Origin: a virus
Strand: one strand, 5' to 3'
IMG/VR virus record: IMGVR_UViG_3300024344_000095
Span: 1-28,960 of that record
DNA length: 28,960 bases
Every line of letters starts with the position of its first letter. Position 1 is the first letter of the stretch. The notes below the pieces were generated by a model. It was not told where the DNA came from and ran no database searches. It saw nothing but the letters and a program-made list of their open reading frames with translations. A program made the position numbers and the translations under genes. Below, one piece after another: positions 1,386 to 16,622 of the stretch.

Positions 1386-2053
1386 TAAAAATTATAACTC
1401 ATATTAAATGATATACTTCGTCTAATTCCTTTTCCTCTAAATGGGTATACTTGGTGCTGTAACCAATTAGGAAATACCATTATTTTTCCTACCTCTGGTT
1501 TTATAGAATACTTAGGATTAACAAAAGGATGAGGGTCTGCAAATAAAAATTCTATCCACCCCGCCTGTTCTCTTTCTTTATCTTCTTCAATAGATTTAGG
1601 AACCTTTAACCATCCTGCTATAGATAACATTCCAGAGTGCATATGAGGTGGATTAAAATCCCCTGCAATAGAATTAACAAGCCAACTATTATGTAATTTA
1701 ATACTTTTAATAGGTTTTTTAGACATTTCTATATCATCTTTATCACCATTAGCAAGATGTGTTTTAATATACATACTAACACAATTTCCTGCCCAATTAA
1801 ATAAACTAGGTAAGTTTTTATTTGGTTTTTCGTACCATATATGGTCTTCAATTTTATGTTCTTGTTTAACATTACCTACAAGATTATTTGACCAATCTAG
1901 CTGTTTTGACTTTTCATCACTTGAAGATATTTTATCTCCATATGTATTTAACATTTTAACATAAGGTTCTGGCATTTTAAACTCTAAAAGCATAGGGCCA
2001 AATGGTGCATGAATTTTACCTCTTAATTTATAATCTTTATAGTTTTCTGTCAT
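1385..2053 (-). CDS. 2OG-Fe(II) oxygenase-like protein
   Basis: A 222-aa protein resembling the putative 2-oxoglutarate/Fe(II) oxygenases common in marine phages (2OG-FeII_Oxy_5 type). The N-terminal half includes HNSWLVNSIAGDFNPPHMH, with candidate metal ligands H137 and H139 in the NPPHxH motif. The distal part holds FPNWLQHQVYPF with the expected distal His (H200), followed by RRSISFN with the Arg (R211/R212) that would bind the 2OG carboxylate. The usual first motif is HxD/E, so HxH here is a variation to note. These enzymes hydroxylate proteins, nucleic acids or small molecules; the substrate is unknown. Its ATG overlaps the upstream stop as ATGA, and its TAG overlaps the GTG of the 34-aa membrane gene. 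Confidence 0.7.
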   Translation of the reverse strand: MTENYKDYKLRGKIHAPFGPMLLEFKMPEPYVKMLNTYGDKISSSDEKSKQLDWSNNLVGNVKQEHKIEDHIWYEKPNKNLPSLFNWAGNCVSMYIKTHLANGDKDDIEMSKKPIKSIKLHNSWLVNSIAGDFNPPHMHSGMLSIAGWLKVPKSIEEDKEREQAGWIEFLFADPHPFVNPKYSIKPEVGKIMVFPNWLQHQVYPFRGKGIRRSISFNMSYNF

Positions 2054-2457
2054 AATGCCACCAAATCTGTTATAGGTACTAAATATCCTTTAGAAGTTAA
2101 CTTGTCACCACCAGAGACAATAGTATATCTATTATACACCTTCTTTCGCAATCTGTCAAGAGGAATCTCAATAGAAAACATATGTTTATCTTTCTTATCC
2201 ACAATTCTAAATATCCAAATGTCAGCTTTGCTAGTTTTTACGCCACTTTCCTTTCCTCTAGACATAAACTCAACAAATACATTTCCTGTTTTATGTGACA
2301 ATCGGTCTGTCTTCAACTCATAATTCTCTCGTGATTTCATTACAAGTTTTTCATGCTTCTTTCCATACTTTAAATCTTTCTTAAATTTAGTTATAGAAAA
2401 ATCATGTGATTTTAATTCTTTTAGTGTCTTTCCATTATTTTGTTCTATTTTACTCAA
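2050..2457 (-). CDS. Putative PD-(D/E)XK-fold phage protein
   Basis: A 135-aa protein whose centre reads YELKTDRLSHKTGN, then FVEFMSRGKESGVKTSKADIWIF, and later VSGGDKLTSKGYLVP. This pattern (ExK, TGN, GKxSG, T-ADxWxF, GGD) recurs in phage proteins thought to have a restriction-endonuclease-like fold. The E47-L-K49 motif and D51 are candidate active-site residues. Cleavage of host or branched phage DNA is plausible but not shown. The start is TTG at 2457-2455 with a 4-nt overlap (TTGA) with the upstream stop; the end overlaps the next ATG by 4 nt. The position next to endonuclease I and the Cas4-like nuclease supports a nucleic-acid role. Confidence 0.5.
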   Translation of the reverse strand: MSKIEQNNGKTLKELKSHDFSITKFKKDLKYGKKHEKLVMKSRENYELKTDRLSHKTGNVFVEFMSRGKESGVKTSKADIWIFRIVDKKDKHMFSIEIPLDRLRKKVYNRYTIVSGGDKLTSKGYLVPITDLVAL

Positions 2458-2789
2458 TGTTTTTTTCCTATATTAACTAATTCTATACTTTCATCATCTA
2501 CTATTTCTGTTGTAGGTGTATCCCCATTATTTTGTATATCTACTATCTTATCCATAATAGCCATTTGACCTAAAGAAACAAGCCTATCTAAATCAGTGTT
2601 CATCATTTCGATTATACCTTTCAACACATAAAAAGCAGGGCTAATAGGCTCTTTAGGGTTTGTTGTATCATATGCCATCATATCAAGACCCCCTTTACCA
2701 TCGTCTACAGGTTTTAAAATTAAATAAAGTCTATCGGGTAGTAGCGATAACTTTTCTGTTTCGTCTATAAGTCTATTTATATCAACCAT
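2454..2789 (-). CDS. Hypothetical protein in the nuclease cluster
   Basis: A 111-aa acidic protein with no recognised domain. The N-terminus (VDINRLIDETEKLSLLPDR) is helical. A middle segment (DRLYLILKPVDDGKGGLDMMAYD) looks like two beta strands, followed by a helix (FYVLKGIIEMM). The C-terminus is acidic. The ATG lies inside the end of the endonuclease I gene (13-nt overlap), and the stop overlaps the downstream TTG start, so it is co-translated with two nuclease genes. Function unknown. Confidence 0.5.
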   Translation of the reverse strand: MVDINRLIDETEKLSLLPDRLYLILKPVDDGKGGLDMMAYDTTNPKEPISPAFYVLKGIIEMMNTDLDRLVSLGQMAIMDKIVDIQNNGDTPTTEIVDDESIELVNIGKKH

Positions 2790-3142
2790 TCTTTAGGTAT
2801 CCTTTTTTCCGCCCAAAGTATTTTATTTTTGTCACACCATTGACCATAAGTAGTTTTACTGGACTTGTTAAGTTTATTTTTAGCATTTACAAACAAAAAT
2901 CGTATATCAAAATCTGGATTCTGTTCTCTAACTAATAAGTGTTTTTGTCTATCTGCTAAATCAAAAAAACCTTTTGCTTCAATAAATATATTCTGTTTAG
3001 GTAAATAAAAATCAGGAGTATATCTCTTAATTTTAGGTTGATACTCAAGATATTGTAGCTCATATTCATATTTTATACTATTCTTAATTAAAAATAAGGC
3101 AACTCCCCTCTCAAATTCAGAGCGAAATCCTTTTCTTCTCAT
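2777..3142 (-). CDS. Endonuclease I, Holliday junction resolvase (T7 gp3-like)
   Basis: A 121-aa protein that aligns along its whole length with the T7 gp3 pattern: an RSxFE..VA N-terminus, YTPDFYLP, IFIEAKGFF, DRQKHLLVREQNPDFDIRF, a KSSKTTYGQWCDK segment, and a terminal IPKEWLI. By analogy with T7, the catalytic residues are E11, D44, E55 and K57, all present. T7 gp3 resolves branched DNA and degrades host DNA during infection; the same role in the cytoplasm is expected. Length is close to T7 gp3 (149 aa) but shorter at the N-terminus. The gene overlaps the upstream stop by 4 nt (ATGA) and the downstream gene by 13 nt, consistent with one polycistronic message. Confidence 0.88.
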   Translation of the reverse strand: MRRKGFRSEFERGVALFLIKNSIKYEYELQYLEYQPKIKRYTPDFYLPKQNIFIEAKGFFDLADRQKHLLVREQNPDFDIRFLFVNAKNKLNKSSKTTYGQWCDKNKILWAEKRIPKEWLI

Positions 3143-3537
3143 ATAAGCGTTGTCATTTTAAATTTATTTGTTTTCTTGATATTATTAGAAAAAATATCTC
3201 CTAGTATAGGGGCGTGTTTTTCCATTTCAATCATAGCCTCATTTATTTCTATGGTAGGTAAGATAGCTAATTTACCTTGTTTTATTCGTATATGTAAAGC
3301 ACTAAAGTAATTATCTATCATTCTTGATTTTCTAGCTATGTTATCCTCTCTAAAATAGCCGTCCTTACCTATTGTTTCTCTTGTTATAAGTGGATGACAA
3401 TTTTCATTTCCTCTCATAAATTCTCTCATTTCACCCCCACCTTCTTGTAATTCATTGTCAGTATAGACCCAAATAGCATCCCTGTTGGATGTAATATCAT
3501 CTTTTCTGAAAGGATGAGATAACCAAAGTATGTTCAT
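3139..3537 (-). CDS. Phage protein with a VYTDN...GGG...RGN pattern, possibly DUF7831-like
   Basis: A 132-aa protein. The segment AIWVYTDNELQEGGGEMREFMRG followed by NCHPLITRETIG resembles a pattern seen in small phage and bacterial proteins (vFvfGDN, a glycine-rich loop, RGxxN, then GIPTK), which suggests a nucleotide- or ligand-binding fold. I recall similar proteins being labelled DUF7831, but cannot confirm this. The later part (NYFSALHIRIKQGKLAILPTIEIN) is mixed alpha/beta. It overlaps both neighbours by 4 nt in ATGA junctions, lying between two nuclease genes. Function unknown. Confidence 0.5.
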   Translation of the reverse strand: MNILWLSHPFRKDDITSNRDAIWVYTDNELQEGGGEMREFMRGNENCHPLITRETIGKDGYFREDNIARKSRMIDNYFSALHIRIKQGKLAILPTIEINEAMIEMEKHAPILGDIFSNNIKKTNKFKMTTLI

Positions 3538-4427
3538 ATGTTTTTTACCTCTGTATTTTTTAATTTATTATACCACACCATAGGCTTTGATTTAGCTTTT
3601 GATGTTACTTTTTCATGCAATACTGCTTTAGGCCAACAATGTTTTCTAAAATCACAGTAACCACATATACTTTCTAGTATAGTATTTCCTGTTTCTATTC
3701 TGATACCTTTTTGTTTACCAGATTTAGGAACATAAGTTTCTGGTATTTCATGAAATAATTTTTCAAATTTTTTATTAGATTCTAAAGCTTTAATATTTTC
3801 ATTAGCTGTTTGTAATACTTCTTTTCTGTCTTCTTCTTGATTTACAGGTGCCTCACATACAGCAAATTCTCCAGTAACTTTATTTATGGCTATCCAACCA
3901 CCAAAAGGAACATTGTCAGCTTCACCATATAAATGACCTTGCATAATGTACCCAAATGGGTCATCACCCTTTATCTTATTATAACTTCCAAACTCACCAA
4001 ATTTACTAACAAAACTAGATGGACTAGCAGACTTTATATCCCAGACTTTACCATCTATTTTAACATCATAAGTACCACCCAATTCGGTGTTTCCTATTTT
4101 TAATTTTACAGGTTCTTGTATTTTTTCAAGTTCTATACCTGCACCTCTCATAACAGCTATAGCAACTGCTTCAAGTAAATCACCCATTAAAAACTTAATT
4201 ATTGTATTGTACTGTAATTCTTTTTCTTTACCTTTTTTTTCTAATTGTTGTTGACATAGAGGTTTACCTAACCCCGACATCCTCATTCTCCATTCAATTG
4301 CTTCATTAAATTGTTTTTCTAAAGCTTTACCACAAGCTTCTTTAAATTCTTCTATAGTTTCGGGGGAAAGTTTTGCCTTCCCCCGAACCGCATCATAGAG
4401 AAAACTCTCTATTAGAGTAGATAACAT
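3534..4427 (-). CDS. PD-(D/E)XK nuclease with Cas4/AddB-like cysteine cluster
   Basis: A 297-aa protein with the core signature of RecB/Cas4-type exonucleases: GDLLEAVAIAV with E86, LGGTYDVKIDGKVWDIKSASP with D121, D130 and K132 (the D...D-x-K active site), and YIMQGHLYG, a QxxxY-like motif. C58 together with C255, C258 and C264 (CGYCDFRKHC) matches the one-plus-three cysteine arrangement that binds a [4Fe-4S] cluster in Cas4 and AddB. It probably degrades or resects DNA, filling the place that gp6 exonuclease has in T7. It stands between the putative ssDNA-binding protein and endonuclease I. The ATG is 3 nt from the upstream stop and no clear ribosome site is seen. Confidence 0.78.
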   Translation of the reverse strand: MLSTLIESFLYDAVRGKAKLSPETIEEFKEACGKALEKQFNEAIEWRMRMSGLGKPLCQQQLEKKGKEKELQYNTIIKFLMGDLLEAVAIAVMRGAGIELEKIQEPVKLKIGNTELGGTYDVKIDGKVWDIKSASPSSFVSKFGEFGSYNKIKGDDPFGYIMQGHLYGEADNVPFGGWIAINKVTGEFAVCEAPVNQEEDRKEVLQTANENIKALESNKKFEKLFHEIPETYVPKSGKQKGIRIETGNTILESICGYCDFRKHCWPKAVLHEKVTSKAKSKPMVWYNKLKNTEVKNI

Positions 4428-4430
4428 ATG

Positions 4431-5273
4431 CTATTCTTGGTCTAACTCGATAGCTAGGGAGTGGTCGCCATCTTTTGTTTTACTTTTAATAGCATTACGA
4501 TGCTTCTCCATGACACTTTCGTTTACGGATTTTATAGCTACCATAAATTCTTTAAGTAATTCCTTATCTGTTTCAGATAAATCAACTGAAGAACCTGTCT
4601 TAATACTAATAGAAAAATAAGTGTTTCCACCCGATTTTTGTTTTTTCGTAGATAGCATAAGATTAGTTCTTATCATTGGCTTTTTCTGTTTTGCTAAACC
4701 AGATAATGCACTACTAAAAGGTAAATAATTTGTACCTTTAGCATATAGCACACATGGAACTTCCTTAACATTTACATCTTTCTCATCAGATAGTTTACCT
4801 GTAAGAGTTGCTACACCGTAAATAACTTGATTACATTTTATCGAACTTTGGATAACTCTCTGTGGGTCATTTTCTGGTAGTTTTTCAAATTCCTCCCTAG
4901 ATAATTTTCCGCACTTATAAGTACCCCTAGAATCGGCAAATTGGTCTCCTAGTGATGGCATTTGCACACTTGATGTAAATTCCTCTTCACTATTATCCCA
5001 ATAACTGTATGCATATAAGCGAAGAAAAGGTCTAAAAGTAACCTCTTTCGCATACACATTGTCACCATCAATAGGAAGAACAAAATGACCTCGTGGTAAC
5101 GGCTTGTCATTGTCATCTTCTGTTTGATAGTTAATTGATAAACGACCTAGCACTGAACCTTGTCCACCGCCATTATCCGTTTGTCCTGTTAGCTTCATTA
5201 ACTCCGCATCACTTAATGTATTAAAGTCAGTTGGAACCGCTAAAGCATTATTGTCTGTACCATTTTCAACCAT
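4431..5273 (-). CDS. Putative single-stranded DNA-binding/replication accessory protein
   Basis: A 280-aa protein without a domain I can name with certainty. It has an acidic N-terminus, a beta-rich centre (GHFVLPIDGDNVYAKEV, FRPFLRLYAYSYW, IYGVATLTGKL), and an acidic C-terminal tail ending SLAIELDQE, as is typical of phage ssDNA-binding proteins. Its place directly after the polymerase and before a recombination-type exonuclease fits that role. Cysteines C121, C147 and C174 are scattered, without a clear zinc motif. The ATG overlaps the end of the polymerase gene by 8 nt. AAGGAGG lies 12 nt upstream, a long spacing. Function is inferred mainly from position. Confidence 0.5.
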   Translation of the reverse strand: MVENGTDNNALAVPTDFNTLSDAELMKLTGQTDNGGGQGSVLGRLSINYQTEDDNDKPLPRGHFVLPIDGDNVYAKEVTFRPFLRLYAYSYWDNSEEEFTSSVQMPSLGDQFADSRGTYKCGKLSREEFEKLPENDPQRVIQSSIKCNQVIYGVATLTGKLSDEKDVNVKEVPCVLYAKGTNYLPFSSALSGLAKQKKPMIRTNLMLSTKKQKSGGNTYFSISIKTGSSVDLSETDKELLKEFMVAIKSVNESVMEKHRNAIKSKTKDGDHSLAIELDQE

Positions 5274-6819
5274 TGGATTTATAAACCTCCTTCATGTTTA
5301 ACCAGTCATTACCAAGTTTTAACTCAATTCCTACTGGCATTGTATATTTAAAGCCATATCTTTCTTCACACTCATTTGATAAAGACATCATAGCCTCCTT
5401 TAAAGTTGTGATAGCTTGTTGTTCTTCGTCTGGATACACATCCAAAACGATACTATCATGTACTGTGTTGCATATAATAGTCTTTAAATTTCTTTTTGTC
5501 AACAAGTTTTTTAAATTAATTAATGCAATAGGCAATAAATCTGCTGTAGCAAAGCCTTGTACAGGATAATTCTTTATAGCAGTAGAATTTGTCACACTAC
5601 CACTCCGTAATCTTTCAACATTTGGAAAGAAATATTGTCTTCCACTCGGTAATTTTATCTTATTTGACATAAGTGCCTCATTTTGTAGTTCTCTATGCCA
5701 TCTTGTAATACCAGAATACTTGTTTTTAAATGCTCTATAATACTGCATCTGTTTTGGAGTACCTAAAATACCCCCATAAAGAGGCTTAAAGGTATCCGAC
5801 TTAGCTTTTTGTCTAGATACACCTAGTATTCTAGCTGTATAACTATGAACATCAACCTCATTTTTAACATCTTTAAGCACTTGTTTGTCATCCGCTAAAA
5901 ATCCCGCTACTCTAAATTCTAATTGAGAATAATCACCCTCTAGTATCTTCCCACCTTTAAATCGTGAAGTGATACATTCTCTAACAGGAAAAGTATTACC
6001 TCTAGGCATATTTTGGAAGTTAGGGTTTCTAGATGATAATCTTCCTGTGCTTGTCACACATTGCATAAATTGTGGATGTACCATACCATCTTTACTTATA
6101 GCTTTTTGCATACCATCTACAAAAGTTCTTAGGTAAGTTCGTATAGCTGAATATCGTATATACTTAACTAAAAACTCATGTACTTCATCACTAGCAGTAG
6201 ATAAATAACTTTCTAATATTTCTTTGTCAGTTTTAAATCCCATAGCAGAACAATCAATAACATTTCTTGGTTTTAATTTTAATCCTGCTCTCTCATCTTT
6301 ATTTGTAAACAGTAATCCTTTTTCATCACAAGTTTTACACTTTCTTTTTACATTACTAGGTGTGCCATCTTTTTTCATGTAAATGTACTTACCTGTTCCT
6401 TGACAGTTATGGCAAATAGTTCCATGTGTTTTAAATATAGGTCTAGCTAAAGAATTTATTTCTATATAAAAATCCTGTATACTTTCAAAATTAGTTCTTC
6501 GTTTAGGTTTTTTTGTATTACCTCTTAATTCGTATCCTATGTTAAATCTTGTCGCCCACATTTTTTTGTCAGTTACTTTCATTGAATAAAAAAGCACCGA
6601 CCTATCTTCTGGTGAATCTAAATTAATTGGTGTGTCGCCCATAAAATATTTTACTTTGTCATTTAAATATTTTTGTAAGTCAACAAGTTCTTTTTCAAAT
6701 TTAACTTTTATACTTGTTAGTATGTCAGTATTAATATGTAAACCATTCATTTCAATGTCAGCTAAAACTTTTGTTAGTTCCATTGAAAGTTTTATAGTTG
6801 GTACTATTCCGTTAGGCAT
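5266..6819 (-). CDS. DNA polymerase, family A, with DnaJ-like zinc insertion and no exonuclease domain
   Basis: A 517-aa protein with all family A polymerase motifs: motif A GDYSQLEFR (D296), motif B R336-xxx-K340-xxx-F344-xxx-Y348-G349, and motif C VHDS (H454, D455). F344 is at the E. coli Phe762 position. The N-terminus (SMELTKVLADIEMNGLHIN) is the region that normally follows the exonuclease domain, so the protein lacks proofreading; that activity is the separate gene at 7017-7565. Residues 136-164 hold CHNCQGTG and CKTC, a CxxCxGxG ... CxxC zinc module like the DnaJ central domain. From memory this partial DnaJ domain marks the polymerase of HMO-2011-type phages. AGGAGG lies 10 nt before the ATG. 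It replicates the phage genome with the helicase and primase. Confidence 0.93.
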   Translation of the reverse strand: MPNGIVPTIKLSMELTKVLADIEMNGLHINTDILTSIKVKFEKELVDLQKYLNDKVKYFMGDTPINLDSPEDRSVLFYSMKVTDKKMWATRFNIGYELRGNTKKPKRRTNFESIQDFYIEINSLARPIFKTHGTICHNCQGTGKYIYMKKDGTPSNVKRKCKTCDEKGLLFTNKDERAGLKLKPRNVIDCSAMGFKTDKEILESYLSTASDEVHEFLVKYIRYSAIRTYLRTFVDGMQKAISKDGMVHPQFMQCVTSTGRLSSRNPNFQNMPRGNTFPVRECITSRFKGGKILEGDYSQLEFRVAGFLADDKQVLKDVKNEVDVHSYTARILGVSRQKAKSDTFKPLYGGILGTPKQMQYYRAFKNKYSGITRWHRELQNEALMSNKIKLPSGRQYFFPNVERLRSGSVTNSTAIKNYPVQGFATADLLPIALINLKNLLTKRNLKTIICNTVHDSIVLDVYPDEEQQAITTLKEAMMSLSNECEERYGFKYTMPVGIELKLGNDWLNMKEVYKSNG

Positions 6820-6835
6820 TAGCTTTATACCTCCT

Positions 6836-7024
6836 CTAGAGTATAGTTTGAGAGATGACTGAATTTAACTTAGCATTTTTATAATCATTTTCATCTAAAG
6901 ATAAATTTCCTTCTAAAGATAACCCACCATCTTTAATTAAAATTTTTCTAGCTTGTTCTTCTGTTTCTGCTTCAACTTCATAAACATAATAGCAAGGCAC
7001 ATCAAATATAAATTTTTTACTCAT
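6836..7024 (-). CDS. 62-aa protein between exonuclease and polymerase
   Basis: A small protein starting MSKKFIFDVPCYYVYEVEAETEEQ. The pattern of a short beta strand, YEVEAETEEQARKI, and then a helix is that of small DpnD/PcfM-like or ferredoxin-fold phage proteins, but I do not recognise the family. It overlaps the exonuclease gene by 8 nt and ends 16 nt before the polymerase start, so it physically separates the two halves of a polymerase that is usually a single chain. The gene at 10594-10791 has a similar strand pattern (VYEVDAKDDADL). A role as a linker or accessory subunit between exonuclease and polymerase is speculative. Confidence 0.55.
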   Translation of the reverse strand: MSKKFIFDVPCYYVYEVEAETEEQARKILIKDGGLSLEGNLSLDENDYKNAKLNSVISQTIL

Positions 7025-7565
7025 ATAAATCTCCCCAATTCATTTTTAATTTACTCAACTGTGCAACTGCAAGTTGGTATGTACTTTCAACATCCTGTTT
7101 ACCATACTCTTCTACAATAGTCCAAGGTATTCTTTCATACGAAGTTTTATTTGTCATAAATGGTTGAATTAGTTCACTTTTTTTAAGTGCTACACCTTTT
7201 CTTTTACAACAATCTTCTAGTGAAAATCCCCACTTAACACCTCGTGCCATAATATATTCCATAACCATAGTGTCATGTAATTTTTTGTCATAAGTAAATC
7301 CACATTGAATTAACCAACTGTAATCGAATTTTATGTTATGTCCTACAAGAACATTAGCTTTGTCTAAAACATCCTGTAAAATATTTTTTGCATTTGGTGT
7401 TGGTGGTTCATCTCTATGATAAAAACATAAGTACTTAACAGGATTGTCATTAACTTTATATCCAACAGAAACTAATGTGTTATCATTAAATGGACTTGAA
7501 GTTATTTTATTTTCTTCATCAACATCAAAAGTTGTTTCTACATCAAGTGTCAGTATCACTTTCAA
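7017..7565 (-). CDS. Stand-alone 3'-5' exonuclease (DEDDy, DNA polymerase I proofreading type)
   Basis: A 182-aa protein with the three exonuclease motifs: Exo I LDVETT (D8, E10), Exo II GHNIKFDYSWL (D81) and Exo III YGKQD (Y154, D158, the YxxxD of the DEDDy subgroup). It corresponds to the exonuclease domain of family A polymerases and is followed, after a 62-aa gene, by the polymerase domain. It probably proofreads for the separate polymerase. The longest frame starts TTG at 7565-7563; GTG at 7559-7557 is an alternative start better spaced from GGAGAGGGG upstream. It overlaps the end of the helicase gene by about 17-23 nt. Confidence 0.85.
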   Translation of the reverse strand: MKVILTLDVETTFDVDEENKITSSPFNDNTLVSVGYKVNDNPVKYLCFYHRDEPPTPNAKNILQDVLDKANVLVGHNIKFDYSWLIQCGFTYDKKLHDTMVMEYIMARGVKWGFSLEDCCKRKGVALKKSELIQPFMTNKTSYERIPWTIVEEYGKQDVESTYQLAVAQLSKLKMNWGDLYE

Positions 7566-9607: not shown

Positions 9608-9765
9608 GATGTCAATTCATCGGGACAGGAACTTAATTATTGACCCATATCCTGTAGTGTCTCATTCGATACTCACTCTCTTTGTCATTTTTGTTTCCAA
9701 AAACTTAGGACAATACTCATAGCCTTCGAGACTTTTCATTGGTAGTCAACCAAACTAATATAACC

Positions 9766-9793
9766 CTTCTAAACTACTAAAAACTAATGTCAA
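9766..9793 (-). promoter_or_regulatory. Possible leftward promoter of the replication operon
   Basis: On the minus strand TTGACA (9793-9788) is a perfect -35 box. The best hexamer at a 16-nt spacing is TAGAAG (9771-9766), only 4 of 6 matches to TATAAT. The 16-nt spacing equals that of the two strong promoters at 16.6 kb. Its position directly upstream of the primase gene, head to head with a rightward candidate across an A/T-run, supports it. The -10 box is weak, so confidence is low to moderate. Confidence 0.4.
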
Positions 9794-9815
9794 TAAAAAA
9801 AAAATAATTTTTTAG

Positions 9816-9843
9816 TTGACTTTTAAATTTAAAGGAGTACAAG
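9816..9843 (+). promoter_or_regulatory. Possible rightward promoter for the early + strand genes
   Basis: TTGACT (9816-9821), a 16-nt spacer and TACAAG (9838-9843, 4 of 6 matches). It lies 48 nt before the first rightward gene, which has a good AAGGAG site. It is back to back with the leftward candidate, with 22 nt of nearly pure A/T between the two -35 boxes. The leader also has a short GGGG/CCCC hairpin at about 9842-9855. The -10 match is weak. Confidence 0.35.
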
Positions 9844-9891
9844 GGGAACACCCCCACTGCGGGACACTTTATATCATTTAAGGAGTAAACT

Positions 9892-10377: not shown

Positions 10378-10597
10378 AATAATTGTTATATCCTTACTAC
10401 TATTAATTGTTTTTGCTACTTGTAGTGGCTGTGCTTTTATGGTAGCTAAAGAAACTGTTAAGGCTATTGATGATGTTTTAGAAAGTAGTCCTAATCCAGA
10501 AAAGAAAAAGAAGATACTAAAGAAACAACAAACCATGAAAGATAAATCTAGGGAGTTTTATTGTAGTAAGGTTAAAGATAAGGAGAAGTGTGGATGA
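10370..10597 (+). CDS. Small lipoprotein-like or membrane-anchored protein
   Basis: I start this gene at GTG 10370, inside the end of the preceding gene, because GGTGGAGG lies 4 nt upstream; a further upstream Met gives an N-terminus that disrupts the signal sequence. The 75-aa product has one basic residue, a hydrophobic core (IIVISLLLLIVFATC), then CSGC, and a long basic/acidic hydrophilic tail rich in Lys. The TCSGC region resembles a lipobox, but neither Cys has a perfect -3 to -1 context. A small early-expressed membrane or lipoprotein could serve superinfection exclusion, as Llp does in T5; this is inference. The gene ends in an ATGA overlap with the next start. Confidence 0.55.
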   Translation: MYRIIVISLLLLIVFATCSGCAFMVAKETVKAIDDVLESSPNPEKKKKILKKQQTMKDKSREFYCSKVKDKEKCG

Positions 10598-10791
10598 CTA
10601 GAAGATATAGAGTAACAATAAAAGTTGAAAAACAAGAAGTTTATGAAGTTGATGCTAAAGATGATGCTGATTTAATTAAAGAATGTCAGTTTTCTCATTT
10701 ACAAAAAAAATCTAGTAATGTAAAACATATTGAAACTAAAAATGAGATAAGACAATTAGGTGGATGGAAAGATATATCAAATGTCAAATAA
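10594..10791 (+). CDS. Hypothetical 65-aa protein
   Basis: The start is chosen at ATG 10594, which overlaps the previous stop (ATGA) and has AAGGAG 8 nt upstream; an in-frame GTG at 10588 is less well placed. The product starts MTRRYRVTIKVEKQEVYEVDAK and has a strand-strand-helix appearance similar to the 62-aa protein at 6836-7024 (YEVEAETEEQ). Family not recognised. It is part of an overlapping gene string ending at 11304. Confidence 0.5.
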   Translation: MTRRYRVTIKVEKQEVYEVDAKDDADLIKECQFSHLQKKSSNVKHIETKNEIRQLGGWKDISNVK

Positions 10792-11155
10792 TAAATTACT
10801 AAAAAACTTAAAAGAATTAGTTAAGCTACCAAAAAATGTCACTATTGGGGCTTATAAAGTAGAACTTGTCAGAATACCACATGATGTCGCTTATGAGAGT
10901 TCTGATTATCAAGGTAGTTTTGTCAGCAAACCACCATTAAAAATTTATTTAGATGAACAAATAATTGATATGGGAGGTATGGATGCTGTTAACTTAGTGA
11001 TACATGAATTTTGTCATCTAGGTTTCTATCAGTATGGTATGAAAGATAAAGAAGAAGAACATATTGTTAATTCCTATGGAAATTTTTTAACAGAACTGTT
11101 AATGAGAAGTGAATTAAAGGAGTGGTTATTATGGCAAATAACAAAAAATGCATGA
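10781..11155 (+). CDS. HExxH zinc metallopeptidase-like protein
   Basis: A 124-aa protein when started at ATG 10781 (MSNNKLLKNL), which overlaps the upstream gene by 11 nt; a GTG at 10760 would add seven residues without a better ribosome site. The key segment is VIHEFCHLGFYQ, with H75, E76 and H79, the HExxH zincin motif, followed by KDKEEEHIVNSYGNFLTELL, in which a Glu (91-93) could be the third zinc ligand. Phage proteins of this layout are common and of unknown role; cleavage of a host regulator or processing of a phage protein are options. Two TGTCA motifs lie at its start and five further within or near it. Confidence 0.65.
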   Translation: MSNNKLLKNLKELVKLPKNVTIGAYKVELVRIPHDVAYESSDYQGSFVSKPPLKIYLDEQIIDMGGMDAVNLVIHEFCHLGFYQYGMKDKEEEHIVNSYGNFLTELLMRSELKEWLLWQITKNA

Positions 11156-11304
11156 GTTGTAATATTAAAGTACCTACCATAAAATACAAAGATACTAGAT
11201 GGTACTGTACTCTATGTTACATAAAAAAGTTTCATCCTGTGGATAACTTTGCTAAGATTTTATTGACAGCAAAAAACAAAGCATATAAAAGGGATAGTGT
11301 TTAG
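11131..11304 (+). CDS. 57-aa zinc-ribbon protein
   Basis: The ATG at 11131 has AAAGGAG 8 nt upstream and starts inside the preceding gene (25-nt overlap). The product has two CxxC pairs (C7, C10 and C26, C29; CMSC and CTLC) separated by a short beta-like stretch with DTRWY, i.e. a small zinc ribbon, followed by a basic helix (NFAKILLTAKNKAYKRDS). Such proteins bind nucleic acid or RNA polymerase; the partner is unknown. It is the last gene before the structured gap. Confidence 0.6.
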   Translation: MANNKKCMSCNIKVPTIKYKDTRWYCTLCYIKKFHPVDNFAKILLTAKNKAYKRDSV

Positions 11305-11745
11305 TGGAGAGAACCCAAGCCTTAGGTTGATAAAGCTCTTATAGGTATATAAAAATGGGACATACAAGCTCTACTAGACATCTTGGGTGGTTGTTCTAGA
11401 CAACAATAAAAACTAGAAAAGCCTGTTTAGGAGTGGGCATGGTAGTCATATCTGTAAGTCCTTTTCCTAAATATGTTAGTTATCTAATCGTTTCGCTCGA
11501 TTTAGCTACGAGCCATTACCTTTAGATAGCAAAACAAGATAAGCCAATAAACGGAGCTATCTTGGTAGGTACGATAACATTCACTAGTGTAGAAACTTTA
11601 GCTTTCTAGTTGTCGTACCTACACTAAGTTTACGCTAGTATCAAACCTGTCGGCGATTGACTTGTAAGTGGTTGGCTGTAGAAAGTGGTTCTAGATAGAT
11701 TCCAGAAACCCTTTGGTACTAGCGTAAATTTATGTGAGGGGAGAA
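11305..11745 (+). ncRNA. Candidate large structured non-coding RNA or structured leader
   Basis: This 440-nt gap has no sizeable coding frame but is full of inverted repeats. Perfect stems include ACCCAAG (11313-11319)/CTTGGGT (11382-11388), TTTAGGA (11426-11432)/TCCTAAA (11465-11471), AGATAGC (11524-11530)/GCTATCT (11556-11562), GTAGGTACGA (11565-11574)/TCGTACCTAC (11613-11622), and TTTACGCTAGTA (11629-11640)/TACTAGCGTAAA (11717-11728), the last extendable to 15 pairs with one G-U. The last stem closes a 76-nt loop with its own GGTTCT/AGAAACC hairpin. G+C is above that of the flanking genes. This is the layout of a structured RNA rather than of a promoter or terminator. The family was not recognised. 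Strand is assumed from the flanking genes. Confidence 0.6.
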
Positions 11746-11751
11746 TAAAAA

Positions 11752-12078
11752 ATGTCAGCAAATTGGATACTAATAGATGCAGATTTGTCATACTATCACA
11801 GCACAAAATTTAGAGCGGGTGGTCGGCTATACTTTTTAAAAACGGGTAGAAAAAATGTCAGCATTTATGACTTAGCCTTACGAAAAAATGTCAGCTTAAA
11901 AATGTCAGCTTTACCACAATTCTTTTATACACCAGAAAATTTTACTCTTACAACACATTTTTTTCCACCTAAAACTTGGAAAAGTATTTTAAAAGATTTT
12001 AGGGGATATACACAAAAAACAAAGAATGAAAAAGATATATTAGATACACTAAAAACAAAAATAAAGTTGACTAAATAA
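11752..12078 (+). CDS. Hypothetical protein whose gene holds five TGTCA motifs
   Basis: A 108-aa protein (MSANWILIDADLSYYH at the N-terminus) with a GGGGAG ribosome site 8 nt before ATG. No domain recognised; it is basic toward the C-terminus. The gene contains TGTCA at 11753, 11786, 11856, 11889 and 11903, four of them as TGTCAGC. These are read in two different frames (Met-Ser-Ala and Asn-Val-Ser), so the DNA word rather than the protein appears to be conserved. It follows the structured gap directly, so the gap RNA may act as its leader. Confidence 0.5.
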   Translation: MSANWILIDADLSYYHSTKFRAGGRLYFLKTGRKNVSIYDLALRKNVSLKMSALPQFFYTPENFTLTTHFFPPKTWKSILKDFRGYTQKTKNEKDILDTLKTKIKLTK

Positions 12079-12123
12079 TTTTTATGTGCAAATTAAACTA
12101 AACATTTTTAAAGGGAGTAAAAA

Positions 12124-12531
12124 ATGATAATAGAAACAGATAAAACCATACCAGAAGCAATTCAGAAAATAGTTGGTACTAATGGTATATTTCATATTCG
12201 TTGGAGAAAAAAAGATAGACGACAATTTGTTGATAATGAGTTTGGGTTTCCTGTAATAAATCCCGATTATGATAAAAACACTATTTTACGAACTGGCAAT
12301 TTTAGGTTGGGTGTAGTAAAAAATCTTAAAGGTGGTAAAAGGAATACAGACCCTAACGAATATTTAATTGCTTTTGATATGAGCAAAAAAGGTTATAGAA
12401 ATATTTATTATAATACGATAGAAAGAATTACAGTAAATAAACAAACTTTTTTTGTTAAGGTAGTTGATACTAAACATTATAGATTTGCTTTAATAGATAG
12501 TACGAATAAAAAAGATATGGAGAATATATGA
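12124..12531 (+). CDS. SH3-like beta-barrel phage protein (tentative)
   Basis: A 135-aa protein with AAGGGAG 6 nt before its ATG. After a helical N-terminus, it has FHIRWRKKDRR, then TGNFRLGVVKNLKGG, EYLIAFDMSKKGYRNI and YNTIERITVN. This order of strands and the Arg/Gly turn pattern match phage proteins often annotated as SH3 beta-barrel fold proteins; they are short early proteins of unknown role. The gene overlaps the next by 4 nt (ATGA). Confidence 0.45.
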   Translation: MIIETDKTIPEAIQKIVGTNGIFHIRWRKKDRRQFVDNEFGFPVINPDYDKNTILRTGNFRLGVVKNLKGGKRNTDPNEYLIAFDMSKKGYRNIYYNTIERITVNKQTFFVKVVDTKHYRFALIDSTNKKDMENI

Positions 12532-12875
12532 AAATACAAGTTAAAGAAGAACATATTAAAAAAGGACGGCCAGAAAATTGTGAGAATTGTGCTCTTGCTT
12601 TAGCTGTAAAAGATAGTTTAAAAGCTGATAGTGTTAGTGTTACTACAGATTGTGACGACAATATTGAAATTTCTGCATGGTTTGACAAGTTAGGTTATAA
12701 GAAACAAAAAGATATAATAATAATGGATAGTGACAGAATACAAGTTAACCATTTTGTTGAAGCTTTTGATAGTTTTTATGATTGGGACGGAAATCAAGCT
12801 GTTAATTTGTTAAAAGAAAACAGTGTTAAGCCTTTTGAATTTGATATAGAATATAACAATCCTTTTACAATATGA
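12528..12875 (+). CDS. Hypothetical protein with N-terminal CxxC
   Basis: A 115-aa protein starting MKIQVKEEHIKKGRPENCENCALALAV. The CENC pair followed by a hydrophobic helix, then the strand SVSVTTDCDDNIEIS, recurs in small phage proteins with no known role. The C-terminal half is acidic and aromatic (FDSFYDWDG). It overlaps both neighbours by 4 nt, so it is translated together with the SH3-like and GP88-like genes. Confidence 0.45.
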   Translation: MKIQVKEEHIKKGRPENCENCALALAVKDSLKADSVSVTTDCDDNIEISAWFDKLGYKKQKDIIIMDSDRIQVNHFVEAFDSFYDWDGNQAVNLLKENSVKPFEFDIEYNNPFTI

Positions 12876-13591
12876 TTAAAGGAAATAAAGAATTACGGAG
12901 ATACACTACTATTTATCCTAAGACAGTAACTACTATAAATTCTTGGAATGATTATAAAAATTATGGTCATAAATTACTTAAACAATCTAATAACAGTAAA
13001 TTAGGTAAGGTGGTTGGTAAGGGGGCTTTTGTTAAAAAGCCTCTCTATTCTTTAAGTTTAGTCGAGCGGGAAATGGGTTGTCCTAAAAGTTGTCATCATT
13101 GGGATAGTTGCTACGGCAATAATATGCCTTTTGCTCATAGGTTTAGAACTGATAAAACCATAGTATTTACAGAAATTTTACGAGATGAATTATTTAATCT
13201 ACACAAAAAACATAAATTTGGTATTCATATAAGACTTCATGTATTAGGAGATTTTTTTAGTAGAGATTACATAAAATTCTGGAATATTATATTAATGCTA
13301 TACCCTAAAATAAGTATTTATGGTTATACAGCCCATAGTCCAAAAAGTATGTTAGGTAAACAAATAAAAAATGCCATCAATAAAATTGGTTTTGATAGAT
13401 TTGCTATTAGGTTTTCAAATTCAGATGTAGAATTGTCAGCGAATAGCACGGAGTATAAACCTAGACTATTAGAAAATGTCAGCTTAAATCCTATTGTTTG
13501 CCCCGAGCAATTAGACAAGGTGGCAAACTGTGTTTCCTGTGGTCTTTGTTGGAATTCCAATGCAAAACAAATTTTATTTAAAACACATTAG
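12872..13591 (+). CDS. GP88-like cysteine-rich phage protein
   Basis: A 239-aa protein with two cysteine regions: MGCPKSCHHWDSCYGNNMPFAHRF (about residues 68-91) and CPEQLDKVANCVSCGLCW near the end. Between them is HIRLHVLGDFFSRDYIKFW and IYGYTAHS. This arrangement resembles the GP88 family of phage and plasmid proteins, which I recall as having the HVxGDF and YGYT motifs and a closing C-rich CxxCxxCW plus H. The cysteines may bind an iron-sulfur cluster or zinc; no activity is established. It has TGTCA at 13091, 13434 and 13477. It overlaps the previous gene by 4 nt. Confidence 0.6.
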   Translation: MIKGNKELRRYTTIYPKTVTTINSWNDYKNYGHKLLKQSNNSKLGKVVGKGAFVKKPLYSLSLVEREMGCPKSCHHWDSCYGNNMPFAHRFRTDKTIVFTEILRDELFNLHKKHKFGIHIRLHVLGDFFSRDYIKFWNIILMLYPKISIYGYTAHSPKSMLGKQIKNAINKIGFDRFAIRFSNSDVELSANSTEYKPRLLENVSLNPIVCPEQLDKVANCVSCGLCWNSNAKQILFKTH

Positions 13592-13596
13592 AAATT

Positions 13597-13815
13597 ATGG
13601 TAGACAAAATAAAAAAAACAATTTCAAATTATCCTTTTGGTAGAAACACTAAAAGCCCAGAATATTACCTTACCCAAGATGTTTTTGGGGATGGTGCAGG
13701 AATTACAGGTCGTAAGAAAAAAAGAAAAAAAGATATTGTATTTAGAGAAAAAAAAACTAAAAAGAAAATATCACAATTAAGTGATTTAAAAACCGAATTA
13801 AACAAGGGAGTTTAA
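13597..13815 (+). CDS. Small lysine-rich hypothetical protein
   Basis: A 72-aa, strongly basic protein. The N-terminal half (NYPFGRNTKSPEYYLTQD) is polar, and the C-terminal half is dominated by Lys/Arg runs, suggesting nucleic-acid contact. No ribosome binding site is obvious before the ATG, which lies 5 nt after the previous stop. The gene ends 1 nt before the DUF932-like gene, and its last codons form that gene's AAGGGAG ribosome site. Confidence 0.45.
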   Translation: MVDKIKKTISNYPFGRNTKSPEYYLTQDVFGDGAGITGRKKKRKKDIVFREKKTKKKISQLSDLKTELNKGV

Positions 13816-13816
13816 A

Positions 13817-14833
13817 ATGCATAAAGAAGAAATAACTAGAACCCATGATAATTTAATGGATGTATCACTATTTGATATGCCTATTAAAAAAGTTATTAAC
13901 CCGCCAATAACTTTACCAGATGAAAACGGGGTACAAACACCCACACTTATGAATGACCAAGTAATTGTCTATAGACCCGATACTATGGAAATTTTAGGCC
14001 GTTCAAGAAGTAATAAGTACAAAATTATTGAGCCTTCAGTACTCTTTCAAAAACACGCTGAGAAAGTTCTGGAGCAGTCAGATTTACCTAAAAATGTGAT
14101 TGTGACTGATAGTATTTTTGAAGGAGGAAGAAAACAAAAAAGGACTGTAGAATATCCAGATTTAACTCATGTAATGCCAGATAATAGCAAGGTTAATATG
14201 AGAAGTGATATTTTTAATTCCGTTGATATGTCGTGGATGTATCAAGCTTTTGCGGGTGCTTATAGGGACTTATGTCGTAATTCTTTAGTTTTTGGCGGTC
14301 AAAGAATGTACCATGTAAAACAAAAACATACTACGGGTTTAAATGTTTCAGCTACACTTAATCAAGTAACTAAAACTATTCAAATGTTTAATGAGAATAA
14401 AGAACTTATGGATAAAATGATTAAGCAAGAAGTTACACTTGAACAGGTCGCTTATATTTTAGCTCAAAATATTGCTAAGAAAAAAAGCGGTCTTAGTCGT
14501 TATGGTATACAACAAAAAGTAGAGGTTAATAAAAAGCTTTTAGACTACTTTTTATTTCAATTTGATAAAGAAAAGGGAAATTTAGGCTCTACTGTCTGGA
14601 ACTTGTTTAATGCTCTTACTCATTGGAGTACACATATTGACGATACCTTTGAAAGAGAGAATGAAAAAACAGGTGAAATCAAAGAGGTTTCAATGACCAG
14701 AATCGGCTCAAAAACACATACGGCTCAAGTAAAAAGAGAGGATAAAGTAAGAGAATTTATGAATAGTGAGGACTGGCAAAATATGTTAGCAGGTGTTTTT
14801 ATTATTCCTAAAGGAGCAAATCTACAATTCTAA
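13817..14833 (+). CDS. DUF932-like phage/plasmid protein
   Basis: A 338-aa protein matching the DUF932 pattern: an early YRPDTMEILGRSRSNKYKIIEPSVLF segment, DMSWMYQAFAGAYRDLCRNSLVF, then a helical stretch and a C-terminal NLFNALTHWSTH. DUF932 proteins are abundant in phages and plasmids and are expressed early. Their biochemical role is unsettled, with proposed links to DNA replication or recombination. AAGGGAG lies 6 nt before the ATG. The upstream sequence (AACAAGGGAGTTTAAAATG) is repeated almost exactly before the gene at 15082. Confidence 0.75.
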   Translation: MHKEEITRTHDNLMDVSLFDMPIKKVINPPITLPDENGVQTPTLMNDQVIVYRPDTMEILGRSRSNKYKIIEPSVLFQKHAEKVLEQSDLPKNVIVTDSIFEGGRKQKRTVEYPDLTHVMPDNSKVNMRSDIFNSVDMSWMYQAFAGAYRDLCRNSLVFGGQRMYHVKQKHTTGLNVSATLNQVTKTIQMFNENKELMDKMIKQEVTLEQVAYILAQNIAKKKSGLSRYGIQQKVEVNKKLLDYFLFQFDKEKGNLGSTVWNLFNALTHWSTHIDDTFERENEKTGEIKEVSMTRIGSKTHTAQVKREDKVREFMNSEDWQNMLAGVFIIPKGANLQF

Positions 14834-14896
14834 TTAAGTTTATGACAATAAATTATAATAAACAACAAATGTCACTTAAACTTATGCGGGGTATCT

Positions 14897-14974
14897 ATGG
14901 GAGATTTAATTCTTTTACTAGGTAGGGTATTCCTAGTTTTGCTATTATTTATAATATTAGCATTAATACTCTAA
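14897..14974 (+). CDS. 25-aa single-span membrane peptide
   Basis: ATG 14897 to TAA 14974 encodes MGDLILLLGRVFLVLLLFII and five more residues, almost all hydrophobic apart from D3 and R10. GCGGGG lies 5 nt upstream as a possible ribosome site. It sits between the DUF932-like gene and a terminator. A second peptide with the same M-x-(S)DLIL start lies at 15850-15924 in the same position relative to a matching terminator, which supports both as real. Role unknown; membrane insertion is near certain if translated. Confidence 0.5.
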   Translation: MGDLILLLGRVFLVLLLFIILALIL

Positions 14975-14988
14975 GACTACAAACTAAG

Positions 14989-15010
14989 CCCCGCAATAGC
15001 GGGGTTTTTT
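14989..15010 (+). terminator. Rho-independent terminator
   Basis: CCCCGC (14989-14994), AATA loop, GCGGGG (14999-15004), then six T (15005-15010) and more T-rich sequence. A strong intrinsic terminator ending the rightward early operon 15 nt after the 25-aa peptide gene. Confidence 0.88.
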
Positions 15011-15017
15011 ATTTGTG

Positions 15018-15045
15018 TTTACAATAAATGAATTTTCTATATAAA
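15018..15045 (+). promoter_or_regulatory. Sigma70-like promoter between two transcription units
   Basis: TTTACA (15018-15023), a 16-nt spacer and TATAAA (15040-15045); both boxes are 5 of 6 matches. It lies directly after a terminator and 37 nt before the next gene, so it would restart transcription for the 15082-15924 unit. The 16-nt spacer is shared with the promoters at 16.6 kb. Confidence 0.6.
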
Positions 15046-15081
15046 ATTATAGTATTAACCATTTAACAAAGGGAGTTTAAA

Positions 15082-15357
15082 ATGGCGACTAAATACTACA
15101 CTAAATCTGAATTAATCAGATTAAATAATAAATCTATTAGAGAAAATAGAAATCAATCTTTAAATAGTGAAAAGGTTAAAAATCTTAACCCTAAATACAT
15201 ATATCCAGTTATGTTTGCAGATTTACATAATGATAACGAAATGCGAACTATCATACTATTTGATGAAAATAATAATCAAGGAATATTAGATATAAGTATT
15301 AATGATTATAATAAGTTAAATACTGTTAAAAAGCTTGTAGGGGGTCTTAATGCCTAG
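15082..15357 (+). CDS. Hypothetical protein, first gene of a small unit
   Basis: A 91-aa protein, asparagine-rich and polar (many N, D, K), with an N-terminal helix (YYTKSELIRLNNKSI) and a later strand region (YIYPVMFADLH, MRTIILFDENNNQGILDI). Family not recognised. AAAGGGAG lies 6 nt before the ATG, in a leader nearly identical to that of the DUF932-like gene. It overlaps the next gene by 8 nt. Confidence 0.5.
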   Translation: MATKYYTKSELIRLNNKSIRENRNQSLNSEKVKNLNPKYIYPVMFADLHNDNEMRTIILFDENNNQGILDISINDYNKLNTVKKLVGGLNA

Positions 15358-15589
15358 TACACCATATATGACCCAGAAACATTTTGAGGTATTAGCGGAT
15401 GAATTAGCACATGATAAGTTTTTTTATGATTGCTTAATCGCTTATCATGAAAAGCTAGATAGAATGATTAAGTATTGCCAAGATTCTAACCCCAGATTTG
15501 ACCTTAAAAAGTTTACCGCTAGAATTGATAAAACTTATAACCTTTTTGATAAAAATATGAGAAAAGCACTTGTTGGAGGTACTAAATGA
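15350..15589 (+). CDS. Hypothetical 79-aa protein
   Basis: A mostly helical protein (TQKHFEVLADELAHDKFFYDC, then a Lys-rich segment) of unknown family. AGGGGGT lies shortly before its ATG, inside the previous gene. It ends with GGTK, where GGAGGT also forms the ribosome site for the following gene, with which it overlaps by 4 nt. Small early phage proteins of this type often target host factors, but nothing here indicates a partner. Confidence 0.5.
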   Translation: MPSTPYMTQKHFEVLADELAHDKFFYDCLIAYHEKLDRMIKYCQDSNPRFDLKKFTARIDKTYNLFDKNMRKALVGGTK

Positions 15590-15846
15590 TAACTAAATTA
15601 GAGAAGGATAGAGTAAATACTGAATATTTCTTAAAATTTGAAAAACCGCACAATCTGAGGGGTAGAGAACACGGGCTTATAAGAGCTTATTCCAGTATGT
15701 ACGATTTTATGATTAATACCCCTACTGTTAATTTAACACCAAAAACTATTAGAGATGAACTACAAAAAAGACTTATTAAGCTTGGCTGTACTCATTTAGA
15801 GGTTAAAGGAGTTCCAGAATATATAGATATTAATGGAGGTACTTAA
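15586..15846 (+). CDS. Hypothetical 86-aa protein
   Basis: A protein starting MITKLEKDRVNTEYFLKFEK, with charged helices and a terminal GVPEYIDINGG. No family recognised. It overlaps the upstream gene (ATGA), with GGAGG 6 nt upstream of the ATG. Its last codons supply GGAGG for the 24-aa peptide that follows at 10-nt spacing, a junction that repeats the previous one (GGAGGTACT). Confidence 0.5.
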   Translation: MITKLEKDRVNTEYFLKFEKPHNLRGREHGLIRAYSSMYDFMINTPTVNLTPKTIRDELQKRLIKLGCTHLEVKGVPEYIDINGGT

Positions 15847-15849
15847 TTT

Positions 15850-15924
15850 ATGCTTAGTGATTTAATCTTATTTATGCTTATAATCTGTGTAGGTTGTTTT
15901 ATACTTGCATTTTATTGGAAATAG
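15850..15924 (+). CDS. 24-aa single-span membrane peptide
   Basis: ATG 15850 to TAG 15924 encodes MLSDLILFMLIICVGCFILA followed by FYWK: a single hydrophobic helix with one Asp near the start and Trp-Lys at the end. GGAGG lies 10 nt upstream. It corresponds in size, DLIL start and position (just before a GCCCCGC terminator) to the 25-aa peptide at 14897-14974. Role unknown. Confidence 0.5.
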   Translation: MLSDLILFMLIICVGCFILAFYWK

Positions 15925-15959
15925 ATATTAATTAGATATTTCATTAATTCCTTCTAATT

Positions 15960-16005
15960 AGCCCCGCAAATTGAGAACTGGGAGAACTCAAGCGGGGCTT
16001 TTTTT
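15960..16005 (+). terminator. Rho-independent terminator
   Basis: AGCCCCGC (15960-15967) pairs with GCGGGGCT (15992-15999), with an inner TTGAG/CTCAA stem (15971-15975 and 15987-15991), followed by seven T up to 16005. It closes the 15018-15924 unit. The outer stem is nearly the same as that of the terminator at 14989, with a different loop. Confidence 0.88.
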
Positions 16006-16594
16006 ATTTCGGGTATTATTGCGGATGCATCCAGATTTATTGAGGGTTTAGTCCTAGTTTACACTTAGCTTCAATTAGTGGCTTATGTGTTAAAATCTAA
16101 GGGTTTTTAGGGTGCTTATTGTTCGCAAATGGGCTAGGGAATAAGCCTAGAATTAAATCGAAACTAGTTAAAGTTGTCAGCCTAGTTTTGTATGCGGGTG
16201 TACCCGAAAAGCCCCTTAAATAAAAAAGGGAAATACCCAGTCATTCTATTAGATTATATCTAGATTAAATTTAGAGTTCATTCTAGGTTACCCCCAGTTC
16301 CCCCGACTACCTTGATTTATTAGTTTCGATAACTGGGATTATCACTAATAGTAACTGTAATTATCGAAAGTAATAGTTCATTATAGGTCAGTACCCTTTA
16401 TTGTAAAAAATGGCGGAATATATATATTTTTGGGGGTACTATAGGGTCACGGGGGGTGGTATGGTAAGGGTTATACAAAGTGAATAGAATTTTATAGAAA
16501 TTACCCTGTTAACTAGGAATCGCTTGCCCCTACGGTACCCTTACATATATATCTATATAATAGATGTAAGCCCCCGGGTAAGGGGGTATCTCCT
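16006..16594. other. Hairpin-rich non-coding control region
   Basis: About 590 nt without a supported gene on either strand. It contains the palindrome GGATGCATCC (16023-16032), a CTAGG/CCTAG hairpin (16134-16150), an AAACTAG/CTAGTTT stem (16161-16188) with a TGTCAGC in its loop, the large stem-loop at 16318-16375, a G-rich run on the + strand (GGGGG, GGG, GGGGGG and GGG between 16432 and 16470) that could form a quadruplex, a TTACAT/ATGTAA stem (16541-16569), and a CCCCC/GGGGG hairpin (16571-16586). The layout fits a regulatory region or replication origin between early and late genes; that function is inferred. Confidence 0.5.
16318..16375. repeat. 15-bp inverted repeat with 28-nt loop
   Basis: TATTAGTTTCGATAA (16318-16332) pairs with TTATCGAAAGTAATA (16361-16375) with a single mismatch. 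Nine central pairs (TTTCGATAA/TTATCGAAA) are perfect. There is no T-run on either side, so it is not a terminator. It may be an operator, an origin element or part of the leftward transcript from the promoter at 16595-16622. Confidence 0.65.
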
Positions 16595-16622
16595 ATTATA
16601 CACCTGTGTGCGTATTTGTCAA
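16595..16622 (-). promoter_or_regulatory. Consensus sigma70 promoter, leftward
   Basis: On the minus strand TTGACA (16622-16617), 16-nt spacer, TATAAT (16600-16595): both hexamers are perfect. It would fire leftward at about 16588 into a non-coding region whose neighbouring genes all point right, so it probably makes an antisense or structural RNA. The RNA would begin with a CCCCC/GGGGG hairpin followed by a TTACAT/ATGTAA hairpin. Confidence 0.8.

Follow-up and report, generated by a model that had tools for sequence, protein, structure and literature searches.

Genome organization and the early region

The stretch of DNA analyzed here, hereafter the window, is a whole IMG/VR virus record (IMGVR_UViG_3300024344_000095) of 28,960 bases, and the element in question is a short DNA word, TGTCAGC with its shorter forms TGTCAG and TGTCA, which accumulates on one strand of the replication region regardless of gene direction. 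We find that this word is a real, selected, polar, and regional DNA signal and not a protein, mRNA, or promoter effect. Judging by its DNA polymerase, terminase, and gene order, the window belongs to the HMO-2011-type marine podoviruses: the polymerase has its best match in Pelagibacter phage HTVC033P (47% identity), and the terminase is ~48-53% identical to those of several HMO-2011-type members. The left part encodes a family A polymerase, a DnaB-like helicase, a primase, a Cas4-like nuclease, T7 endonuclease I, and a 2-oxoglutarate (2OG)-Fe(II) oxygenase; it is followed by small rightward genes and then by a rightward late module with the small and large terminase, a portal-like protein, and the major head protein. 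A complete circular sister genome, G016 (56,949 bases in the record, whose ends overlap by 99 bases), encodes a major head protein and a polymerase that are, respectively, 99.7% and 98% identical to those of the window. Neither tRNA nor tmRNA was found, and no known RNA family was matched. The core replication genes are as follows:

5266-6819, minus strand: family A DNA polymerase, polymerase part (the exonuclease part is a separate gene, 7017-7565)
7543-8769, minus strand: DnaB-like replicative helicase
8756-9607, minus strand: T7-type primase with a CPxC...C...C zinc-binding motif and Toprim_2, the candidate reader of the word under the proposal favored below

The split of DNA polymerase A into two genes in the window has no counterpart in HTVC033P and HMO-2011, where it is one gene. 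In the polymerase part there is a zinc insert of the CxxCxGxG type, which corresponds to the DnaJ-like insert that has been described for the HMO-2011-type group. Many small early genes are directed rightward between 9892 and 16790, and the small early genes of HTVC033P are co-directional with its primase. Local gene orientation thus varies among subgroups, yet the strand of the word is constant.

A polar word confined to the early region

Between positions 2048 and 16621, the plus strand contains 53 copies of TGTCA vs 12 of TGACA. A preliminary description of this DNA had put the ratio at about 53 to 13, and the 13th TGACA lies at 16654, just beyond the border. In the same interval the extended forms are nearly or entirely restricted to the plus strand (TGTCAG, 23:1; TGTCAGC, 15:0, the latter as reported earlier). 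Outside it, the plus-strand ratio of TGTCA to TGACA is 0:10 to the right of 16621 and 0:0 to the left of 2048. Whether the bias switches near 2 kb and at 16.6 kb had been raised as a question; the plus-strand word is indeed confined to the zone, but there is no strand flip, the polarity simply ending before the late region. Most copies of TGTCA (47 of 53) are inside genes, no regularity was detected in the spacing of the sites, and, outside the array described below, the conserved flank reaches 6-7 bp only. The zone and its extended sites are the following:

2048-16181, plus strand: polar zone, with TGTCA and TGTCAG(C) concentrated across leftward genes, the divergent intergenic gap, and rightward genes
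2220-2226, plus strand: TGTCAGC in leftward gene 2050-2457
3914-3920, plus strand: TGTCAGC in the leftward Cas4-like nuclease gene 3534-4427
6756-6762, plus strand: TGTCAGC in the DNA polymerase gene, with an orthologous copy retained in many relatives
7671-7677, plus strand: TGTCAGC in the helicase gene
8043-8049, plus strand: TGTCAGC in the helicase gene
8250-8265, plus strand: TGTCAGC and a second TGTCAG (at 8260) in the helicase gene
8409-8415, plus strand: TGTCAGC in the helicase gene
10684-10689, plus strand: TGTCAG in rightward early gene 10588-10791
10921-10927, plus strand: TGTCAGC in rightward gene 10760-11155
13434-13440, plus strand: TGTCAGC in the gp88-like gene 12872-13591
13477-13483, plus strand: TGTCAGC in the same gp88-like gene
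16175-16181, plus strand: TGTCAGC in the non-coding gap that separates early from late genes, the rightmost copy
3456, 6225, 6567, 6723, 7548, 8260, and 10867, plus strand: other sites with TGTCAG only

Because the plus strand is read in reverse by leftward genes and, in the coding sense, GAC is the more frequent trinucleotide of the pair, raw counts were compared with a coding null, in which synonymous codons were shuffled within the genes of each strand so that both the proteins and the codon usage were kept. Against this null, TGTCAG is the top 6-mer of all on the plus strand of the early genes (22 observed vs 3.96 expected; Poisson P ~3e-10) and TGTCAGC is the top 7-mer (14 vs 1.77; P ~7e-9); the reverse complements show no excess in these genes (for TGTCAG, 1 vs 1.62). 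In the coding sense of the leftward genes, TGACA was observed 34 times vs 12.2 expected and GCTGACA 7 times vs 1.03, and about one third of the TGTCA copies in these genes are ordinary coding bias. The rightward early genes, too, exceed expectation (TGTCA, 15 vs 7.05; TGTCAGC, 7 vs 0.59), and the excess occurs in several codon frames. The choice between aspartate codons provides a model-free check: in the T-GAY-A context, GAC accounts for 25 of the 41 codons in early leftward genes vs 5 of 46 in late genes (P 8e-7), and for only 4 of 31 in early leftward genes when a base other than T precedes the codon. Thus, the earlier view that the word is strand specific irrespective of gene direction, and that a protein- or mRNA-level cause is unlikely, holds. 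The late-region count of 0:9, in contrast, was reproduced but is not a signal, because the coding null alone predicts 2.4:11.9 (late genes: TGTCA, 0 vs 2.4 expected; TGACA, 9 vs 11.9).

The border between early and late genes is marked by promoters:

16595-16680, both strands: a pair of perfect sigma-70 promoters (12 of 12 matches) placed back to back, leftward 16622-16595 and rightward 16653-16680

The TGTCA at 16617 and the TGACA at 16654 are the -35 boxes of this pair. An A/T-tract separates the two promoters, and relatives retain the pair at the junction of early and late genes; transcription from the leftward promoter would run antisense to the rightward early genes. The long non-coding gap that precedes the late genes (15847-16790) is structured, with z of about -4 on both strands, and includes an apparent hairpin with a T-run terminator at ~15.96-16.01 kb. 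Leftward promoters were rejected as a general explanation of the word: at both TGTCAG and TTGTCAA sites, the score for a TATAAT-like -10 element 16-18 bases away is at background, and real promoters are included only among the TGTCAA sites of the window clade.

A second source of apparent polarity is restriction avoidance. GATC is absent from the window (~86 expected from base composition) and from G016 (~165 expected), as are GGACC and GGTCC, which indicates strong avoidance; GATC is likewise absent from the genes of L032, a relative with 70% polymerase identity, and has normal frequency in the tested loci of relatives with 55-59% identity. In the late region there is a strong polar GACC(A/C) word that looks like T7 primase sites, (G/T)GGTC, on the other strand. 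As T7 primase sites with a strand switch at 16.5 kb, GACCA and GACCC were rejected, since their excess is found only where GAC replaces GAT before C; because GATC is totally avoided and GAC stands for GAT in this position, the late GACC excess is an artefact. T7 itself was uninformative as a control, because GACC is strongly over-represented there as well, probably for the same reason. The TGTCA signal is not such an artefact, because clades without GATC avoidance show it as strongly. The suggestion that the word is the recognition site of a restriction system was abandoned, given that avoidance would deplete the word rather than enrich it and that the real avoidance here concerns GATC and GGWCC.

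Together, these results bear on the possibility that the word simply reflects amino-acid content, codon choice, GATC avoidance, mRNA, or -35 elements. Each of these factors leaves some trace: coding bias accounts for the late 0:9 and for part of the leftward count, GATC avoidance does yield a false polar word in the late region, and two copies are -35 boxes. Nevertheless, the excess survives synonymous shuffling in four clades, in both gene directions, and in several frames; the extended sites have no -10 partner; and the word is undiminished where GATC is not avoided. We therefore give this explanation almost no credence.

Conservation of the word in related phages

In G016, taken in the orientation of the window, TGTCAG is found at 20:1 in the first 16.3 kb and at 1:2 in the other 40 kb, and the word zone occupies 1.3-14.5 kb of 56.9 kb, that is, ~13 kb. 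The polarity is unchanged at the point of divergent transcription (8.45 kb in G016; 9.6-9.9 kb in the window) and ends before the late region. Relatives down to 70% polymerase identity carry the word on the same strand, at ~2-3 per kb in the denser bins vs ~0 on the other strand, and in these phages, relative to the polymerase start, it extends ~5 kb upstream and 1 kb downstream. Individual sites turn over between relatives, but orthologous copies of TGTCAG are retained more often than frame-matched 6-mers (0.77 vs 0.53 in G016, 0.60 vs 0.35 in L014, and 0.33 vs 0.13 in L032), and new sites in relatives number 0-6 on the same strand vs 0-1 on the other. These comparisons show that the sites are kept by selection on DNA, with losses made up for by new copies elsewhere on the same strand. 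When close relatives were pooled with the array gene left out, TGTCAG was observed vs expected at 31/7.5 in rightward and 94/22.2 in leftward genes, and its reverse complement at 4/5.7 and 4/10.3, respectively.

The signal reaches beyond this clade. In three distant clades with 55-59% polymerase identity, of which two are AT-rich and one has 44-46% GC, TTGTCA is the top 6-mer and TGTCA the top 5-mer (z 14.3, 11.5, and 10.0). Across the four clades, TTGTCA on the plus strand was observed vs expected at 37/11.0, 21/3.9, 24/7.1, and 19/4.2 in rightward genes and at 97/27.7, 46/16.6, 39/14.9, and 32/12.1 in leftward genes; its reverse complement is mostly near expectation, at most ~2.4-fold above it. 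Because the distant clades share TTGTCA as their top 6-mer, TTGTCA is the common core, and AGC is the 3' extension preferred in the window clade. In the distant positive clades, the zone starts in or just to the right of the polymerase gene and runs rightward for ~6-9 kb, with 5-9 TGTCA per kb at its densest, and in all positive clades it covers the polymerase, helicase, primase, and adjoining early genes. The bias that was expected in related phages is thus shared by several clades and absent from other subgroups: the word is missing from L079, L072, and, by individual counts, L070, and no strong word is present in HTVC033P, HMO-2011, CRP-345, and CRP-3.

Other words are over-represented in some of these phages, including the palindrome CTGTACAG, on both strands, in the 59% and 56% clades (L039, L041, L082, L084, and relatives), CGTACG-type words in the GC-richer clade and L079, and CCCGGG in L032. 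These are perhaps sites of a dimeric regulator.

A conserved array in an early gene

One rightward early gene holds five copies of the word in 155 bases. The features at this locus are listed below:

11743-11909, plus strand: array of TGTCAGC at 11753, 11856, 11889, and 11903 and TGTCA at 11786, most preceded by an A-tract
11752-12078, plus strand: gene containing the array, 108 aa, without Pfam or PHROG match
12124-12531, plus strand: WYL_2-like gene (Sm/SH3-fold family) adjoining the array; relatives pass the PF10902 cut-off

All bases of GAAAAAATGTCAGC, a stretch present twice (with the copies at 11856 and 11889), are invariant in 11 aligned sequences, and the neighboring third codon positions vary. 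In the aligned relatives, the array sites use the codons GTC and AGC, which are rare here (6% of Val and 4% of Ser codons). The AlphaFold model of the array-gene product (pLDDT, the predicted local distance difference test, of 53) was too poor to use. A similar arrangement is found in L082, in which a WYL_2 gene is directly beside a dense TGTCA array; ~11 copies are packed into 310 bases (18219-18530 in reverse-complement coordinates), from the end of the WYL_2 gene into the short next reading frame. In the window, the array gene is adjoined on its other side by a conserved 447-base non-coding stretch (11305-11751) with strong predicted structure (z -5.0 on the plus strand) and no Rfam match, a candidate non-coding RNA or origin.

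Candidate readers of the word

Phage clades that differ in GC content share the word, and in SAR11 genomes it shows neither enrichment nor a consistent skew; from this we infer that its reader is phage encoded. Overall, the data suggest a previously undescribed strand-specific signal read by some phage protein; no mention of the word was found in the literature searched. That the word marks one strand over a continuous zone and ignores gene direction suggests a process in which one strand is exposed or tracked. In T7-like replication systems, the commonest process of this kind would be lagging-strand priming or replisome assembly. Our best guess, put forward tentatively, is that a phage protein reads one exposed strand during replication, with the words serving as priming or replisome-assembly sites. 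Under this proposal, a fork would move rightward across the early region with the plus strand as its lagging-strand template, the phage primase-helicase would favor TTGTCA, which contains the T7-type primase core GTC, for priming or assembly, and the array might constitute an initial priming zone. We rank priming or assembly first because the replication genes are common to nearly all members compared, because the phage encodes a primase with the T7-like zinc motif, and because TTGTC is one of the (G/T)2GTC sites at which T7 primase starts, with an influence of the 3' flank (PMC12839067). Like the sites of T7-type primases (PMC12839067, PMC11109968), the word is restricted to one strand and has a GTC core, with TTGTC and TGTCA enriched on the plus strand only or far above the minus strand.

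Several results weigh against priming. Within the T7 set, enrichment is seen for TTGTC alone, the counts of GGGTC, TGGTC, and GTGTC being near expectation in three clades without GATC avoidance, and only a quarter of the genome is covered: the late 40 kb of G016 show no enrichment of TTGTCA on either strand, although priming is needed there too. The primase of L079 closely resembles that of the positive L074 and L078, yet L079 is devoid of the word, and, as noted above, HTVC033P, HMO-2011, CRP-3, and CRP-345 have no strong word. A rightward fork would require replication to start close to the zone's left end, but no gap resembling an origin is obvious there; the large non-coding gaps are instead at 11.3-11.75 and 15.85-16.79 kb. 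Finally, the site spacing is irregular. The primase-site interpretation in the preliminary description remains the leading guess despite these discrepancies.

The main rival, which we consider unlikely, is that the words are asymmetric double-stranded sites of a phage DNA-binding protein, acting as a stoperator-like roadblock or silencer and possibly bound by a WYL_2-like protein, with the polarity following early leftward transcription initiated at the conserved 16.6-kb promoter. The right border of the zone is indeed close to this perfect leftward sigma-70 promoter, the word reads TGACA in the sense of leftward transcription, near the -35 core, and dense irregular arrays with A/T-rich flanks lie beside WYL_2-like genes. 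By its position only, the WYL_2-like protein is a candidate reader, and it is the best positional lead; however, WYL_2 was not found in the weakly positive L080 and L083, and a divergent copy is present in the negative HTVC033P. A precedent exists in the stoperators of cluster A mycobacteriophages, 20-30 dispersed, asymmetric, monomer-bound sites in one orientation, located partly in the replication arm (PMC9283540, PMC6550527). The words described here are 6-7 bp, mostly intragenic, and indifferent to gene direction; stoperators, in contrast, measure 13-14 bp, are largely intergenic, and follow the direction of transcription. As true stoperators the words were rejected, since in four clades the strand they occupy does not differ between leftward and rightward genes and the orientation rule failed; this mismatch holds unless a putative leftward transcript from the 16.6-kb promoter is what the sites act on. 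Furthermore, no repressor was recognized among the early proteins scanned, many of which are without any match, and there was no integrase match.

A third possibility, which we regard as improbable, is a Chi-like polar signal for a phage helicase-nuclease, for example, the Cas4/RecB-like nuclease encoded at 3534-4427, steering degradation or recombination from one direction. Like the Chi sites of RecBCD and AddAB, the word is short, strongly polar, over-represented, and independent of gene direction, and a RecB-family nuclease accompanies the replication genes in the phages compared. However, Chi is host specific and genome-wide, whereas the word is phage specific and local, and the nuclease is also encoded by negative phages. 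A Chi of the host itself, one form of the option raised earlier, is disfavored: in six genomes of SAR11, the host inferred from related pelagiphages, only generic UvrD-type matches to AddA were obtained, none over the cut-off (RecBCD was not searched), and TGTCAGC is rare (~50-70 per Mb on both strands) and without consistent skew. Of this option we retain only the phage-read form, at the low probability given above.

Strand-specific nicks in virion DNA, another of the initial suggestions, would likewise involve a short word on one strand, in many copies, and unlinked to gene direction. Virion DNA of T5 and some T7-like phages carries only few nicks. The more than 50 sites in 14.6 kb are far above this number, and no nicking enzyme was identified, so we consider nick sites highly improbable.

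Comparison with other polar and repeated signals

Two further families of signals share features with the word. KOPS (FtsK-orienting polar sequences) and AIMS (architecture-imparting sequences) are polar words with a regional gradient that serve FtsK-type translocases on chromosomes; the word resembles them in polarity and regional gradient, but no such motor or flip point was seen here. Origin iterons, such as those bound by lambda O, are clustered direct repeats recognized by an initiator at a replication origin. The 11753-11909 array is similar in consisting of intragenic direct repeats with A-tracts beside a structured non-coding stretch; it differs in that copies of the word are distributed over ~14 kb, the core is only 6-7 bp, the spacing in the array is irregular, and no initiator was identified. 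Overall, the word resembles primase sites, Chi, and stoperators but fails a defining test of each family tested. It is possible, albeit doubtful, that many HMO-2011-type phages encode a hitherto undescribed polar address system, linked to neither transcription nor T7-type priming, in which a short word marks one strand of the early quarter of the genome and allows a phage protein to recognize strand or direction there.

Implications

The HMO-2011-type phages have been described as dominant and broadly distributed in the sea (PMC9038755). Comparison of words across relatives, under a null that preserves proteins and codons, can reveal DNA signals hidden inside genes. In this group, which has few cultured members, the word offers a readable mark of a strand-specific process, and with it one can test in which direction replication proceeds or which polar DNA-binding protein is involved.

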